A stretch of DNA of 64,000 nucleotides, taken from a virus. The stretch is from IMG/VR virus record IMGVR_UViG_3300034082_004192, positions 1 to 64,000 of that record; one strand, given 5' to 3'. The notes under the pieces are model-generated. The model was not told the origin of the DNA. It ran no database searches and worked only from the letters and a program-made list of their open reading frames with translations. The translations under genes were made by a program, and so were the position numbers. Shown here piece by piece: positions 25,163 to 60,063 of the stretch (its first letter is position 1; the number at the start of each line of letters is the position of its first letter).

Positions 25163-26260
25163 TTAATCCATTGGGAAAAGAATGTGCTTAAAGTTTTCAG
25201 CTTCGAGCATCAATAAAATAAAATCATTATGCTTTATAAAATTAAGTTTTAATTTCTTGCTATCGAGCAAATCCAAAACTCTTATCAAATGAGAAGAAAC
25301 ATAAGATACAGATAAAATTTCATAATTTTCAACTTCAATGGTATCTACAACAGCATTTTTTTCATTACTTGTTGCTGATATCACGATCTTGTTGATGTCA
25401 AGAGTTAAGTTTATCATATGAGAATTTGTAATATTGGATACAAACTTAACACTCTTTACCAATGCATCTTTTTCTAAATCGAGTGAAAGAAAAAATTGAT
25501 CACTGAAAAATTGATTGAAGTTTGAAAAGATCTTCTCGTAAGTATTTTTCTCAAGATTGCAAGATAATTCTCCACCATTCCAGGTCAAATAAATTTTGCT
25601 ATTATAAAGAGAGAAAACGATGCCAGGTATTTTTTCAATATAATAAAGAACTACATCTGAAATTGTTTTGGAAATCAGATAAGATTGTTGTAATTCATAT
25701 TTTTTACCAAACACGCTAATTCTATGCTTGTCTGAAGATTGAGTGTTTATTTTTCCATCTTCTATAAACCAAAGAATAGAAGTGTAAGGATGTTCATCAA
25801 AATCAGGTGCGCAAGAAAATGAAGTCATTTTTATACTGTGAACAAAATCATCTGCTGTAATATCTAGCGTTTCTAAATCTTGAGAAAAACTAACAATAAA
25901 ATTATCAACAGGAACGGTAGCCAAAGATACTCTAGTTTTCTTGTTTCCAAAGATGAGTAAATTGTCGGCAGGGCTATAAATAAATTGAACTTCTTCTGTT
26001 GGAAAGTTATTTAAAGCATTGAAAAAAGAAGACACGTCTAAGCCAAATGTTCCATCTTCTGTAGGTTGAACATTTGTAAGTAAAAACTTTGAACAACAGA
26101 AATTGTTTTCTGTCTGTACGTAAAGCTTCCCATCAATTGAATGAAAAATAAGACTACTTGATGCAGCTTTATTTTCACGCATAGATAGCTTCGATTTTTC
26201 GATTTTATTAAGTAAGGCAAAACAAACGAGATGTTCTGCCTTATTCAACTTAAATTTCAA
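25163..26260 (-). CDS. dnaN: DNA polymerase sliding clamp (beta/DnaN-like)
   Basis: 365 residues from a TTG start at 26260, the length of bacterial beta clamps. The longer open frame to 26320 would overlap the adenylosuccinate synthetase by about 60 bases and begin with residues unlike any clamp. The TTG instead overlaps that gene's TGA, a typical coupled junction. The sequence begins with strand and helix KFKLNKAEHLVCFALLNKI and proceeds through repeated beta segments (SSFFNALNNFPTEEVQFIY, RVSLATVPVDNF) as in the three-domain clamp ring. It ends HNDFILLMLEAENFKHILFPMD, where the final hydrophobic strand fits the clamp C-terminus. It tethers the phage DnaE to DNA and may also help late transcription given its sigma-gene neighbours. 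Confidence 0.75.
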   Translation of the reverse strand: MKFKLNKAEHLVCFALLNKIEKSKLSMRENKAASSSLIFHSIDGKLYVQTENNFCCSKFLLTNVQPTEDGTFGLDVSSFFNALNNFPTEEVQFIYSPADNLLIFGNKKTRVSLATVPVDNFIVSFSQDLETLDITADDFVHSIKMTSFSCAPDFDEHPYTSILWFIEDGKINTQSSDKHRISVFGKKYELQQSYLISKTISDVVLYYIEKIPGIVFSLYNSKIYLTWNGGELSCNLEKNTYEKIFSNFNQFFSDQFFLSLDLEKDALVKSVKFVSNITNSHMINLTLDINKIVISATSNEKNAVVDTIEVENYEILSVSYVSSHLIRVLDLLDSKKLKLNFIKHNDFILLMLEAENFKHILFPMD

Positions 26261-27252
26261 TGCAGTTGTCCTTGAAATTGGATAAATACACCAGGAAGAA
26301 CCATTCCAACTTCTTTCCAAATATTAGAAACAAATGTATCTTCATTTGCACAAGAAATCAACATATTATTTTCGTAATAATTCCAAGCGCTGTCAACTTG
26401 TCGAAGAACATCCATTTTGTTGATAATAAGCTTTGTAACACCATTCATTTGACAAGCAGTTATGACTTCTTGGATATTTAGCCAGTCGATTTGTCTTGGT
26501 CGTCCGGTTGTGGCTCCATACTCTTGACCAATTTCTCTGAGTTGTTCAAATCGCTCGTCATCTTTTTGGTATCCTTTAGCTCCAACATAGGTAGAATAAC
26601 ACTTGATAACCCCGACAACATCCCGTACTTGCTTATAATTGAAACCATTGTTTAATACTGCTCCTACTCCAGTGTTTGATGAAGTGACATAAGGATAATC
26701 ACCAAAGTCAATATCAAGCCAATATCCTTGAGCACCTTCAGCTAAAAATTTCTTGGGTGAAGAATGAATAAGGCTGTGCATATCAACAAGATATGGTGCC
26801 AATTCTGGAACATCTTTAGCACGAAGACCTGTGCGACCAACTTTGTCTTTATAACAAGGGCCATTTCCAGTGCGAGTTGTTCCAATAGTTGTATCTTTGG
26901 AATCTTCGTCAATATGTTCTTGGGTAATTATGTGTGCGTTTTCTGCAATCTTTAAAAGCGATGTATTGAATCCAAGTCCTTCAAGATACGCAAGTTCGTC
27001 AAATAATTTTTGCGTATTGATAACACAACCATTACCAATGACACTAGGAATGCCATGCAGAACGCCACAAGGAACAAGATGCGTAACAATTTTCTCTCCA
27101 TTGATGTAAATTGTATGACCAGCATTTCCTCCACCGTTAAAACGGACAACGTAGTCATATTCACCTGATGCAGCCATTTGATTGGCTATTTTGCCCTTGC
27201 CTTCATCACCATACTGCATACCGATAACTACATCAACAATTGAAGTTTCCAT
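26257..27252 (-). CDS. purA: Short-form adenylosuccinate synthetase
   Basis: 331 residues from ATG at 27252 (a GTG at 27258 is possible). It joins IMP and aspartate with GTP to make adenylosuccinate. Motifs seen: the P-loop-like MQYGDEGKGK, RFNGGGNAGHT, GNGPCYKDKVGRTGLR, LAEGAQGYWLDIDFGDYPYVTSSN, TGRPRQIDWL and NKMDVL. It is about 100 residues shorter than typical bacterial PurA, like archaeal short forms and phage PurZ. PurZ makes the precursor of 2-aminoadenine. The Asp of GDEGKGK, the PurA catalytic base that PurZ enzymes are reported to lack, is present, favouring ordinary PurA activity. No datZ or mazZ gene is visible here. It is read with the clamp gene and overlaps its start. Confidence 0.85.
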   Translation of the reverse strand: METSIVDVVIGMQYGDEGKGKIANQMAASGEYDYVVRFNGGGNAGHTIYINGEKIVTHLVPCGVLHGIPSVIGNGCVINTQKLFDELAYLEGLGFNTSLLKIAENAHIITQEHIDEDSKDTTIGTTRTGNGPCYKDKVGRTGLRAKDVPELAPYLVDMHSLIHSSPKKFLAEGAQGYWLDIDFGDYPYVTSSNTGVGAVLNNGFNYKQVRDVVGVIKCYSTYVGAKGYQKDDERFEQLREIGQEYGATTGRPRQIDWLNIQEVITACQMNGVTKLIINKMDVLRQVDSAWNYYENNMLISCANEDTFVSNIWKEVGMVLPGVFIQFQGQLH

Positions 27253-27288
27253 ATGCACATTCTACTTCATTGTAGAGATGCAAGCAAG

Positions 27289-55646: not shown

Positions 55647-56463
55647 TTAAAAACTTATCAAATTGAAATCTTGGATTACCTGGATAATCTTCATCTCTCC
55701 ACCAGGTTTCTTCCTTGTATTTAGCCGTGTATTTAGCGAAAATTTCACGCCAATCAAGTAATTCAAATGTAGGAAGATATGGAGAACGGGAAATGGATTT
55801 TTGAAAAGTATCTTCTATAAGTTTCTTTTCTTCTGCTGAACCCTTAGAGAGAGTTTCAAATAATTGATTCAATCCAGAAATAAAATCATCATTTGAAATT
55901 TTATGTGTATGGGCATAATAAGTACATACAATAGGAATTCCAAATTTGGAAAACAATTCTTTTGAACGTCCAAGTTTTGCCAGTTTCATAACTTCATCAT
56001 AAATATCAATAAGAGTTGCAGAGCTGTTTGTATTAATGACATCCTGATAATAACGATTTAAATAATGAGGAAATTCCATAAGCAAGAAATGTCCTGATCT
56101 TTGCATGATCATTGGCTTGTTGATGAAACACCAATCAATAAATTTCTTCGTCCATTCATTTTTATCAAGCTTATTGTCTTCCATAAAATCTGCAATGATG
56201 TTTATGATTTTATTATCCGATGTGTAAGTAACACGGTAAACACCATTAAAAGCTTTTTTATATTCATTGAAGAAATAGTCTGTAAAATTCTTTGCAGTCC
56301 AATCCTTAAGATCTTCTGGGGCATCTTTCAAAGTTTTAACTATAGGCTTCTTGCGTTGACGTTTATTTGCTTGAAATGGATTTGATAATTCAGATTGAAG
56401 AGGAATGTGTTGCATGTAAATACCTTTCACAAAATCATAAGTCGGATCACTAATTGCCTTCAT
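55624..56463 (-). CDS. Unknown protein in replication-recombination operon
   Basis: 279 residues from ATG 56463 (GAGGAAG upstream); the TTG at 56475 lies further back. Basic N-terminus (KRQRKKPIVKTLK), then helices with DWTAKNFTDYFFNEYKKAF, WTKKFIDWCFINKPMIMQ and a C-terminal stretch ETWWRDEDYPGNPRFQFDKFL. The protein is rich in aromatic residues and could be a DNA- or helicase-binding factor, for example a helicase-loading partner like T4 gp59, but I see no homology. It overlaps the SbcC C-terminal gene and the AAA gene, so it is tightly coupled. Confidence 0.5.
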   Translation of the reverse strand: MKAISDPTYDFVKGIYMQHIPLQSELSNPFQANKRQRKKPIVKTLKDAPEDLKDWTAKNFTDYFFNEYKKAFNGVYRVTYTSDNKIINIIADFMEDNKLDKNEWTKKFIDWCFINKPMIMQRSGHFLLMEFPHYLNRYYQDVINTNSSATLIDIYDEVMKLAKLGRSKELFSKFGIPIVCTYYAHTHKISNDDFISGLNQLFETLSKGSAEEKKLIEDTFQKSISRSPYLPTFELLDWREIFAKYTAKYKEETWWRDEDYPGNPRFQFDKFLNGQQSNN

Positions 56464-57175
56464 TTTCTTCCTCAATTACATCAAAATTTTGCATATCTTT
56501 TATCTCTTCTATAGTAGTTTCTTTTACTTTGGCTATGCCATTTTCTTTATATACTAGATAATTTTTTGATGATATAAGGGCAAATTTTTCTGGAGAGTGA
56601 GTGATGAGTATATTTTGCAAACCTAATTCCGTATTATATTTCTTCATAAATTTCAATAAATATTTCATTACACCATCCCTAGAAACAGCAGAAAATGCTT
56701 CATCTAAGAAATAAGCACCTGTGTATCCATTATAAGTTCCAAAGGCAATACGCAATACATAACTGATTATTTCATGCAGTCCTCCTCCACTTGTTCCACG
56801 TAAAGGACGTTTTACTAACTCACCATCAATCAATTTTTCCATTACTGGCAGAATTGTAAATTGACTTGTATTTTCACTTTCCTTTTGGCTTATTTCTTTC
56901 ATTTCCATAGTGAAAGTATAATCTTGACTATACATATCTCTTGACCAAGCAGTAACTAATTCTTCAATTGAAGCAATTGCATTAAGTCTGGTTTCTTGTG
57001 CTATTTGGCGAATAAATATACTAGCTTTTTTGTTGAGTTCTTTGTCAACTTCTAACTCTTTTATCTTACTTTCTTGTTCTTCTAAAAGAGTTTGTAAGGT
57101 TTTGCGTTCTGCTTCAAGAGTAATTAACTCTCTTTCAAGTTTACTACAAAAGCTTTTTATTTGTTGAAGATCCAA
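56450..57175 (-). CDS. SbcC/Rad50 C-terminal half (signature and Walker B), separate gene
   Basis: 241 residues from TTG 57175 with GGAG upstream. Residues 1-50 are a coiled coil (LERELITLEAERKTLQTLLEEQ is the pattern). The ATPase tail follows: ABC signature GTSGGG at 127-132 (the usual LSGGE position) in a helix GLHEIISYVLRIAF, Walker B AYFLDEAF at 154-161, and the H-loop ITHS at 191-194. Walker A is absent, because it is encoded in a separate gene at 58436. Together they would form one Rad50-like head. It is the fourth gene of the SbcC-SbcD operon, separated from the N-terminal half by sbcD and an 87-residue coiled coil. Confidence 0.85.
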   Translation of the reverse strand: MDLQQIKSFCSKLERELITLEAERKTLQTLLEEQESKIKELEVDKELNKKASIFIRQIAQETRLNAIASIEELVTAWSRDMYSQDYTFTMEMKEISQKESENTSQFTILPVMEKLIDGELVKRPLRGTSGGGLHEIISYVLRIAFGTYNGYTGAYFLDEAFSAVSRDGVMKYLLKFMKKYNTELGLQNILITHSPEKFALISSKNYLVYKENGIAKVKETTIEEIKDMQNFDVIEEENEGN

Positions 57176-57177
57176 GA

Positions 57178-57441
57178 CTACTCTCCTTCAAGTTCAGCAA
57201 CTTTATCTTGTAATTCCTGAAGTTTGCTTTCTAATTCGGATTGCTTATTTGTAATTAAGTTCTTAAGATCTTTTGGTTTGCAGCCATAATTGTTTTTGCA
57301 AGTTTGTACTAAATCATCATATTCAGTTTTAAATTGCTCAAGTTGTGGAGATAAAACTTGAACTTTACCTTCAGCATTTCCTTTTTTCTTTTTGTATCCT
57401 TCTATGTGATCTAGGATTTCTTTAGATGTCATTTTTTTCAT
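57178..57441 (-). CDS. Small coiled-coil protein between SbcD and SbcC halves
   Basis: 87 residues, nearly all coiled coil (QSELESKLQELQDKVAELEGE at the end) interrupted by VQTCKNNYGCKPKDLKNLI, where two cysteines six apart sit where a hairpin turn would be. Its ATG overlaps the sbcD stop (ATGA) and a strong AAGGGGG precedes it. It looks like a detached piece of the Rad50 coiled-coil arm or its hook. Alternatively it is a small subunit that bridges the two halves. Confidence 0.65.
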   Translation of the reverse strand: MKKMTSKEILDHIEGYKKKKGNAEGKVQVLSPQLEQFKTEYDDLVQTCKNNYGCKPKDLKNLITNKQSELESKLQELQDKVAELEGE

Positions 57442-58439
57442 TCCCCCTTAATAGTCTTGGTATTGACAGTCTTAACAGCATTGATAGCTAAATCAATAAT
57501 TTCATTGCTAATATTAGCGTTTTCTGCTTTAGTTCTTAGTGCGGAGAGTTTATCATCAAGATTTGTAAACTGCCATGATGTAGTTCTCATGTTTGCAACC
57601 TTAAGTTTAAACTCATGTGTATCTTTCTTAAGTTCTTTCGCTGCTTGCATTTCTTCAATCTTGAAAACTTCACTAGCTGGTTTTGCAGATTTAAGTTTGA
57701 TATATTCTTCGTTTTGAATTTCACCATCCAATGTATAGTCAAGAATTAATATTTTAATGTCTTTTTCTAAATTGTCTCTTGACGCTGAATATCTGCTGAT
57801 TGAACCAGGGTTTATAAATCGCTTTCCATCACTTCTTGTTTGCGTCATTTCATGATGTATATGACCTGAAATGACTAGATTTGTATTGGGATGCAAAGGT
57901 GTATCCTCGAAAAGATAAGCATATTCAGCAAACCTATCAAGTTTTGTTGAGATTGATGCATGACAAACCCAAATAATTGCTGATGAAGTTGTAAGAAAAC
58001 CTTGCTTTATTTCTCTGTCTAGAGATGGAGTGTAATGAGCAAAAGATATACCCAAAGAAGGTTCATAGTCTTTCTTAATCAATAATCCAGCAGAAATAAG
58101 TGTTCCTAAAGCAGTCTTTTCAAGATTTGAAGAACTATCAAGATCGTGATTTCCTACACAAATATAGATAGGAAATGACCAAGGTTTATTACCATTTGGT
58201 ATACCTTTCAAAATTTCCAAAGTTTGATTTCGTAAAAGTGGTCCAACTTCATAAACTTCAAATAGATCGCCAAGAAGAACAACGGCATCAAGCTTTCTTT
58301 CTTCAGCAATTTGAAAACATTCAATAAGCTTTGTTCTGATTGATAAACTATAATCATCAAGTCTATTTTTTGGTTGCCTGTCCATTAAATGGATATCACC
58401 AACAAACATGACTTTATTTTGTTTAATTATATTATTCAT
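57438..58439 (-). CDS. sbcD: SbcD/Mre11-type nuclease
   Basis: 333 residues from ATG 58439, which overlaps the TGA of the upstream gene. Metallophosphatase motifs: VMFVGDIHLMD, VVLLGDLFE, ICVGNHDLD, VCHASIS and SGHIHHE, with FINPGSISRYS following. These are the metal ligands of Mre11/SbcD. The C-terminal region is a short helical extension that should contact the SbcC arms. It processes DNA ends and hairpins together with the split SbcC. Confidence 0.92.
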   Translation of the reverse strand: MNNIIKQNKVMFVGDIHLMDRQPKNRLDDYSLSIRTKLIECFQIAEERKLDAVVLLGDLFEVYEVGPLLRNQTLEILKGIPNGNKPWSFPIYICVGNHDLDSSSNLEKTALGTLISAGLLIKKDYEPSLGISFAHYTPSLDREIKQGFLTTSSAIIWVCHASISTKLDRFAEYAYLFEDTPLHPNTNLVISGHIHHEMTQTRSDGKRFINPGSISRYSASRDNLEKDIKILILDYTLDGEIQNEEYIKLKSAKPASEVFKIEEMQAAKELKKDTHEFKLKVANMRTTSWQFTNLDDKLSALRTKAENANISNEIIDLAINAVKTVNTKTIKGE

Positions 58440-59581
58440 GATAGTCTCTGGCACACACAGAATCTTCCACAGGATTCACAGCTTTCAAAATTTTCTCTAG
58501 CGTAAGTCTCCAAAGATTCAATCTCTTCATCACATTCTTTGATAATTTGATTTAGTTTTTCAATATCTTCTAATTTAGCATCAATTTTTGAGTTTGTATT
58601 TTCAATATCAGAATCCAGCTTCTCCATAGTTAATAATTCAGTATGAATGGAATCACAGTTAGAAATAAGTTGACCTATATCACCTTCAGCAATTTCGTAA
58701 TAATGATTGTAACTCTTTTCAGCAGTTTTATATTGAGTCACTTTATTTGAAATATTTTCGATTAAAATAAGACCATCTGATATGTCATTATAATTTTTAG
58801 TCAACTCTGGAATAATTGTGCTATAAAGTTCTTCAAGTGCTTCATATTTGATTTTTTCATTTTTACAATCAACATATTGTTTGTAAGCTTTGTAAAAATC
58901 ATCAACAAATTCTTCTAAAGTATCAATTTCAGACTCTAAATTTTCATAATCTTGAATGAGATCTTTGAGCTTATTGAAATTTTCTATTCTTTCATCAAGA
59001 TTTTCAAATGGCTTTAATTTTGTTTTGGTAGAATCAAGTTCGGCAGACACTCTTTTTATATCCGCTGAAATTTTATTAACTTCAGAGTTAAGTAATGATC
59101 CTGCTTGTTCTAGATCATCTAATCTTAAGAGTTTTGAAATATCTTTTGGTATCGATGTATCTGTAGAATTGATAAGAAATAATTTATCTTCTTGAGTGGC
59201 AAAAGGAACATAAGCATGAGCTGTCCTTGGTGTATGTCCGATAAATTCTACAACATCTTTTGGAAGATCAGAGCCAAATTTTGCGTGTTTGACAAGTTCT
59301 AGTCCAAAATACTGATACTCTACTTCATTTACAGTGCCTTTAGTTCGTTTTAAGTAATCGCCATTCTTAAAAATGACAGTTATTTCAGTATTTTTCTGTC
59401 CATTTTTAACATCATATGACTTCCATTCATTCTCAAATACAAACATGAATGCACGAAACAAAGCTGACTTGCCACAGTCAGATGAACCTGTAATTACTGT
59501 CAAACCAGATCCAAAAGTTAAAAAAGTATCTTCGTGATTCTGAAAATTCTTTATACGAATGCTTTCTATATGCCTATTCAT
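58436..59581 (-). CDS. SbcC/Rad50 N-terminal half (Walker A and arm), separate gene
   Basis: 381 residues. Starts HIESIRIKNFQNHEDTFLTFGSGLTVITGSSDCGKSALFRAF, where the Walker A GSSDCGKS is at 32-39. The Q-loop region contains YVPFATQEDKLFL. From about 150 the sequence is coiled coil. It ends in FESCESCGRFCVCQ: C368-x2-C371, C375 and C377 are where a Rad50 zinc hook would be, so the polypeptide appears to stop at the hook. The Walker B and signature half is encoded at 56450. Its TGA overlaps the ATG of sbcD. Confidence 0.9.
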   Translation of the reverse strand: MNRHIESIRIKNFQNHEDTFLTFGSGLTVITGSSDCGKSALFRAFMFVFENEWKSYDVKNGQKNTEITVIFKNGDYLKRTKGTVNEVEYQYFGLELVKHAKFGSDLPKDVVEFIGHTPRTAHAYVPFATQEDKLFLINSTDTSIPKDISKLLRLDDLEQAGSLLNSEVNKISADIKRVSAELDSTKTKLKPFENLDERIENFNKLKDLIQDYENLESEIDTLEEFVDDFYKAYKQYVDCKNEKIKYEALEELYSTIIPELTKNYNDISDGLILIENISNKVTQYKTAEKSYNHYYEIAEGDIGQLISNCDSIHTELLTMEKLDSDIENTNSKIDAKLEDIEKLNQIIKECDEEIESLETYARENFESCESCGRFCVCQRLS

Positions 59582-60063
59582 CGTATTAGCATTGTAGACA
59601 ATATATCTGGAAAATGCAAGTCTACAAAATCTAATCTAGCTCTTTGGATAGAGCTTGGTATATCAAAAACATTTGGAATTTCAATTTTATATAGTTCTGC
59701 TCTAATTAATTTTATTGGATTGTTGGTCATAGGGCAACATTTATTTGTTTTGCCATTATGTAATTTATTGCAACTCATACAAAGAAATTCAGCAGACTTA
59801 AAATATGGTATGAAAAAATCAACTGTAATATCAAGTTCTATCTTACGAAATTTTATATATGTGTGATTATTAAAATCTTTATAATTATCACATATCTTTC
59901 TAAACGTATTTCCTTTATTGTCTACAGTCAAAGTAGATGGTATCTTGATTTCATAATCATTGGGAAAAACAAATTTAGTATCAGACAACATGCCTGGAAC
60001 TGCCAAACAGCATAGGAGTTCATTGTTCATTTGTGAAAATCTATATAATGCTGGCTTCTTCAT
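59578..60063 (-). CDS. Unknown protein heading the SbcCD-helicase operon
   Basis: 161 residues with a probable beta-rich fold (DTKFVFPNDYEIKIPSTLTVDNKGNTF, IKFRKIELDITVDFFIPYF) and a zinc-type pattern CMSCNKLHNGKTNKCCP near residues 95-112. The C-terminus (RARLDFVDLHFPDIL) is strand-like. It is the first gene of the operon that continues into SbcC and ends at the stop-start overlap with it. A single-stranded DNA-binding or recombination accessory role is possible. There is no Shine-Dalgarno before its ATG, and it is divergent from a small plus-strand gene. Confidence 0.5.
   Translation of the reverse strand: MKKPALYRFSQMNNELLCCLAVPGMLSDTKFVFPNDYEIKIPSTLTVDNKGNTFRKICDNYKDFNNHTYIKFRKIELDITVDFFIPYFKSAEFLCMSCNKLHNGKTNKCCPMTNNPIKLIRAELYKIEIPNVFDIPSSIQRARLDFVDLHFPDILSTMLIR

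Follow-up and report, generated by a model that had tools for sequence, protein, structure and literature searches.

Introduction

Textbook accounts present Rad50 and each of the structural maintenance of chromosomes (SMC) proteins as one polypeptide doubled back at a hook or hinge, and in known Rad50 two molecules are linked to each other through the CxxC zinc hook. The T4 gp46/47 pair has an established part in end processing and recombination-dependent replication. Here we analyze a 64,000-nucleotide stretch of viral DNA (the window; positions 1 to 64,000 of IMG/VR record IMGVR_UViG_3300034082_004192, which is 76,242 bp long and perhaps itself a fragment) in which the two head lobes of a Rad50/SbcC protein and a small coiled coil are encoded by separate genes alongside an SbcD gene. 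We conclude that these four genes probably specify an Mre11-Rad50 (SbcCD-type) complex with a Rad50 of three chains.

The closest described systems are E. coli SbcC, T4 gp46, SPO1 gp21.9 and P. furiosus Rad50, which the split set resembles in the sequence and fold of lobes I and II, in the CxxC hook at the tip of the arm and in an SbcD/Mre11 partner; all four differ from it in consisting of one chain with the hook in its middle and no counterpart of the small protein. Separately expressed halves of P. furiosus Rad50 assemble in structures 1ii8 (chains A and B) and 3qkr (chains A and B), as we propose for the natural proteins, but these are laboratory truncations without the full arm or hook. 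Fusions of Mre11 to Rad50 and of SbcD to SbcC have been described in Mimivirus, plasmids and Bacillus phage 0305phi8-36 (PMC3175470). Three protein families of Firmicutes phages in PHROGs, 16465 (exonuclease), 15167 (ATPase) and 18563 (unknown function), correspond to the proteins discussed below as N, C and S; they are catalogued apart with generic or no function, under names that do not link them as Rad50.

Results

The four open reading frames (ORFs) lie where a preliminary description of the window had placed them, on the minus strand from 59581 to 56450 in the order N-half (N), SbcD (D), small protein (S) and C-half (C), with the following features (aa, amino acids):

58436..59581, minus strand: N, Rad50/SbcC N-half, 381 aa, with lobe I, ascending coiled-coil arm and C-terminal CxxC (Pfam AAA_23, phrog_16465)
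59465..59488, minus strand: Walker A, GSSDCGKS, residues 32-39 of N (G32, G37 and K38 invariant in seven divergent N-halves)
58469..58480, minus strand: CxxC hook, CESC, residues 368-371 of N (C462/C465 of alignment A9, invariant there)
57438..58439, minus strand: SbcD/Mre11-like nuclease, 333 aa (Metallophos Pfam matches above cut-off, metal-site residues)
57178..57432, minus strand: S, small coiled coil, most likely 84 aa (ORF extendable to 57441; family profile A10)
56450..57175, minus strand: C, Rad50/SbcC C-half, 241 aa, TTG start, with an arm helix followed by lobe II (phrog_15167, PDB profile match)
56780..56791, minus strand: signature-motif region, SGGG, residues 129-132 of C (GGG invariant in 26 relatives)
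56699..56716, minus strand: Walker B, AYFLDE, residues 154-159 of C (D158 and E159 invariant in 26 relatives)

That a Rad50 is divided here among separate genes, as first proposed from the sequence, was borne out by profile searches with both halves. N matches Pfam AAA_23 above cut-off as well as phrog_16465, its lobe I carries a Walker A motif and a Q-loop and is closer to Rad50 than to other ABC ATPases, and a profile of seven N-halves found Rad50 as its best PDB match (6e-13). C has no Pfam or NCBIfam match at cut-off; among PDB entries, a profile of its 26 relatives matched best a C-terminal chain of P. furiosus Rad50 that had been expressed separately (5e-16), with SMC proteins and transporters ranked lower. 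The AlphaFold2 (AF2) model of C (predicted local distance difference test score 87) consists of a single helix over residues 3-81 followed by lobe II, where Walker B and an H-loop are present, and Foldseek with this model ranked Rad50 first. The signature region reads GGG[LIV] in nearly the whole family, in a register that is uncertain by one residue relative to the canonical signature, and the SGG[EQ] of Rad50/SbcC (LSGGE in E. coli SbcC) was not found; because T4 gp46 and SPO1 gp21.9 also lack a GG[EQ] match, the canonical signature may not be strictly defining. In the SbcD protein, D20, H22, D63, H103, D104, H165 and H200, the catalytic residues of calcineurin-like phosphoesterases, are invariant in 11 relatives.

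The break falls at the zinc hook, as the preliminary description had supposed. In single chains the hook lies near the middle (zero-based position 505 of 1048 in E. coli SbcC, 287 of 560 in T4 gp46 and 323 of 637 in SPO1 gp21.9), whereas every N-half listed except Magritte's has a CxxC (usually CPLC, CPVC or CPTC) 4-20 residues before its C-terminus, and the split-N profile aligns this motif with the hook CPLC of E. coli SbcC. The N chain thus stops just past the hook. In the window the CxxC is within 10 residues of the C-terminus, and the CVC that follows CESC is unique to this phage and its near copy. The order lobe I-arm-hook-arm-lobe II in a single polypeptide was not found, the ORFs being separate throughout.

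The most likely start codon of SbcD is the ATG at 58439, which overlaps the N stop codon as ATGA, and not the GTG at 58454; that of S is most likely the ATG at 57432, a start shared by its relatives. The stop-start overlaps that had been noted thus hold for N and SbcD; S and C are separated by a 2-nt gap, the TTG start of C being preceded by GGAGAG and retained in the near copy L008 and in the divergent relatives L009 and L010. What had been described as an 87-residue coiled coil with two cysteines is a coiled coil, probably of 84 residues, and its cysteines are retained solely within the window's own clade.

About 31 IMG/VR contigs, together with several named phages and plasmids, carry the complete set of N, S, C and SbcD. 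This answers the question of whether related phages share the split; many of the contigs are near-identical, so there are fewer independent cases than 31. The four genes are also found in Sutcliffiella, Paenibacillus and Brevibacillus genomes. The order N-D-S-C is shared by the near copy (L007/L008, an 80-kb contig) and by L009 and L010, with about 41-58% identity in the halves. SbcD does lie between N and S-C in the window, as originally described, but this is a feature of the window's clade and a few others, the commonest order among relatives being N-S-C-D; many contigs, Bacillus phage vB_BboS-125 among them, have the order N-(x)-S-C-(x)-D. In a third, Magritte-like group, C stands alone among its own neighbors, and N, S and D are mostly kilobases to tens of kilobases away. 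N is present in all seven Magritte-like contigs longer than 100 kb, the profile found S in 14 of 18 Magritte-like records, and the halves are tens of kilobases apart in the seven contigs above 100 kb, in Magritte and in Tunturi_5, where 107 kb separate C from N. No single-chain SbcC, which would have argued against the split, was found in the 76-kb record, possibly a fragment; three host genomes additionally carry a chromosomal SbcC-type gene.

Several of these loci show further peculiarities. An AP2-domain gene lies between N and S in Bacillus phage vB_BboS-125 (L002:5125-5697), and other prophages have insertions of various size at the same junction; a mobile element may therefore have caused the original split. 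Tunturi_5 encodes a protein with a PEP-CTERM-like tail between S and SbcD (L005:6870-7508), one SbcD frame contains a single in-frame TGA (G010:C1:116985-118037), which may mark a pseudogene, an error or recoding, and in Bacillus velezensis plasmid p3, with the operon order N-S-C-x-D, the C-half (L100:5001-5636) is misannotated as 'chromosome partitioning protein ParA'.

Natural fusions join the parts in two ways. In Geobacillus pGspE55-1 and Paenibacillus pSC2 a single ORF encodes SbcD followed by N, with S and C after it; the Bacillales plasmids in which SbcD is fused to the N-half and S and C are the next genes are L058, L064, L101 and L102. The whole D-N protein is matched by Aneurinibacillus, Brevibacillus, Jeotgalibacillus and another Paenibacillus plasmid, and in Aneurinibacillus and Jeotgalibacillus it is annotated as one gene. 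In Pseudomonas megaplasmids pMPPla107 and pPL1 the halves form a single ORF in reverse order, C-N, ending in CPTC or CPSC (L060:5893-7806 and L061:3641-5623); judged by its sequence, this protein is a circularly permuted Rad50, with lobe II first and lobe I and the CxxC last. S is a separate gene in all fusions and lies upstream of the C-N gene. A search of IMG/VR found no C-N fusion, and no fusion in the canonical N-to-C order was seen among the split sets examined. The two independent types of fusion confirm that the parts belong together, and the partnership of SbcD with this Rad50 is suggested by genomic association and the D-N fusion.

All four open frames are under purifying selection: relative to L008, the ratio of nonsynonymous to synonymous substitution rates (dN/dS) is 0.07 for N, SbcD and S and 0.23 for C. 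Together with recurrence in dozens of records, these values exclude chance ORFs. Along most of the N-D-S-C block, identity to L008 is 94-98%, as compared to 75-87% in the flanks just outside, and dS over 56450-59600 is 0.15-0.28 within the block against 0.73-1.03 in its neighbors. Because the block is nearer to L008 than its flanks are, it was probably exchanged recently as a unit.

In the tree built from both lobes, a single branch (support 100/100) separates 27 split sequences from 6 single-chain ones, and both fusion types are placed among the split sequences; the outgroup is small, the split rows were gathered by mutual similarity, the root was not inferred and several branches are long. 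A single origin of split Rad50 is thus consistent with these data but not proven.

S accompanies the halves almost everywhere, and in nearly every compact operon its gene immediately precedes that of C. The S family (77-105 aa) is built of a helix, a conserved G[VIC]xx turn and a second helix; it has no curated Pfam or NCBIfam match at cut-off, and relatives of the window S match phrog_18563. Among 250 genomes from a single bacterial order, two had a match to S at E<=1e-6, and the strong one (1e-22) came from the sole genome with C. A profile of non-actinophage-type S recovered actinophage-type S at 4e-7 to 0.02 among 5640 ORFs, its other matches at E<=1 outside the S set being a further S (L059) and the window-type N-half itself. 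Given the modest strength of this cross-group match, a common ancestry of the two types is likely but not proven. S and the arm helix of C together measure 146-155 residues in all nine sets where both were measurable. N arms range from 151 to 346 residues, and in the set with the shortest (L053, 151 residues) S plus C also comes to 151. The near-constant length of S plus C, equal to the shortest N arm, hints that the distal portion of the second arm is S.

For structure prediction we used an alignment of N rows alone (A11), since a joint alignment of N and S misplaced the hooks. The modelled N+S chain was an artificial read-through of the N stop codon of L043, made for folding only and not claimed to exist. 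AF2 predicted about six helices in its N arm and helices of 42 and 27 residues in S.

Downstream of the block lie genes for an unknown 283-aa protein, an AAA ATPase, a DnaC-like loader and DnaB helicase; other genes of the window specify RecA, RecJ, Pol III alpha and a clamp loader. A PurA-like adenylosuccinate synthetase lies at 26257-27258, with a weak PurZ match below cut-off.

Discussion

The division of Rad50 among separate genes is real and widespread in phages and large plasmids. The observations on which the three-chain Mre11-Rad50 complex stands are the parts themselves, their homology, the split point, conservation, co-occurrence, fusions and selection; we are less sure of the placement of S as arm than of the complex itself.

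Assembly, zinc binding, the position of S in the arm and the activity of the complex belong to the model that we propose. N would provide lobe I (Walker A and Q-loop), the ascending arm and a CxxC hook at its free C-terminus, C would provide the base of the descending arm and lobe II (Walker B and H-loop), and S would supply or brace the distal part of that arm, with SbcD as the nuclease at the base of the complex. Two N chains would be joined by one zinc at their paired CxxC motifs, and the heads would be closed by ATP. The preliminary description had suggested that zinc might link the two halves, which we do not favor, because C has no CxxC matching that of N and the known hook joins two Rad50 molecules; a zinc link through the cysteines of S was rejected as a general feature, since these are limited to the window's clade. 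The halves more likely meet through contacts between lobe I and lobe II and through the coiled coil, with S within the second arm. From what is known of T4 gp46/47, and from the phage's own RecA, RecJ, Pol III and DnaB, we propose that its role would be to process DNA ends or hairpins in support of recombination-dependent replication.

Several observations weigh against this model in whole or in part. Most N arms (187-346 residues) exceed S plus C in length, and the conserved turn of S (GVTP/GCKP) separates helices of 42 and 27 residues, so that S may be a hairpin rather than a straight arm. The N+S read-through model had a predicted template-modelling score of 0.32 and did not place S on the arm. 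S was undetected by profile in L044, L057 and Microcystis phage Mvi-JY20, the last of which has a 94-aa gene at the S position. The N-half of Magritte has no CxxC, the SbcD-like protein of pMPPla107 is degenerate and has lost its nuclease motifs, and with GGG[LIV] instead of SGG[EQ] the gating or cycle of ATP may differ.

The best surviving alternative accepts N, C and SbcD as a split Mre11-Rad50 complex but casts S as a regulatory or adaptor protein outside the arm, for example a helical hairpin capping the hook or ring, a loader of the complex or a control on the nuclease. Fusion of C with N leaves S on a gene of its own, a short turn joins the two helices that AF2 predicts, and no conserved stretch of S is as easily recognized as the motif at this turn, all of which a regulator would accommodate. 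However, the near-constant combined length of S and the C arm, with its match to the shortest N arm, and the location of the S gene directly before C, where the distal descending arm would be expected, point the other way, and we consider a regulatory S unlikely, if worth keeping in mind.

Gene fission often precedes loss, and the pieces might thus be decaying remnants of an inactivated SbcC. We reject this as most improbable: dN/dS is 0.07-0.23, the Walker A, Walker B and nuclease residues are invariant across deep divergence, purifying selection extends across the family, and within this diverse group SbcD has decayed only in the Pseudomonas plasmids. Nor do we find it credible that a split intein or joining at the RNA level yields one chain after all; distant halves of split genes do fit the split-intein pattern, but with just 4-20 residues past the CxxC and C starting directly with the arm helix no intein halves are present, and the Pseudomonas plasmids fuse the halves in the opposite order. 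Finally, although the pieces lie side by side here and sum to a Rad50, a sequencing or assembly error or programmed frameshift concealing an ordinary SbcC chain, a possibility that the preliminary description had wanted checked, is refuted by the relatives, as SbcD sits between the halves, purifying selection acts on every piece, each with a start of its own, and independent assemblies and isolate genomes share the split with other gene orders, on opposite strands and at distances of tens of kilobases.

The split genes also bear on earlier reports. The published fusions carry the nuclease at the N-terminus of the ATPase and are often plasmid- or virus-borne, like the D-N fusions here, and in Bacillus phage 0305phi8-36 and Anaerostipes caccae an SbcDC fusion was reported to be without one P-loop segment (PMC3175470). 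By analogy with the present loci, a separate C-half gene would likely explain such 'incomplete' fusions. We found no description of a split or permuted Rad50/SbcC in the open literature searched, most subscription journals lying outside that search; provided that no earlier description exists, it would be the first SMC-family ATPase with its head lobes as separate natural proteins.

A permuted C-N Rad50 is possible only if a continuous chain through the hook is unnecessary. Because no chain passes through it in the split set, the ring could open when S or C departs, with the zinc hook still closed, and it is quite possible, though we stop short of calling it probable, that this is an obligate three-subunit Rad50 lineage in which S is a true subunit. 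The findings offer an identity for three previously unlinked phage protein families. They also provide a natural test of whether the arm and hook of Rad50 must be one continuous chain, and would make ring opening at the hook versus the head, and signalling along the arm, addressable by subunit drop-out. Taken together, the three-chain, SbcD-fused and permuted forms indicate that continuity of the chain at the hook is dispensable in a lineage under selection.

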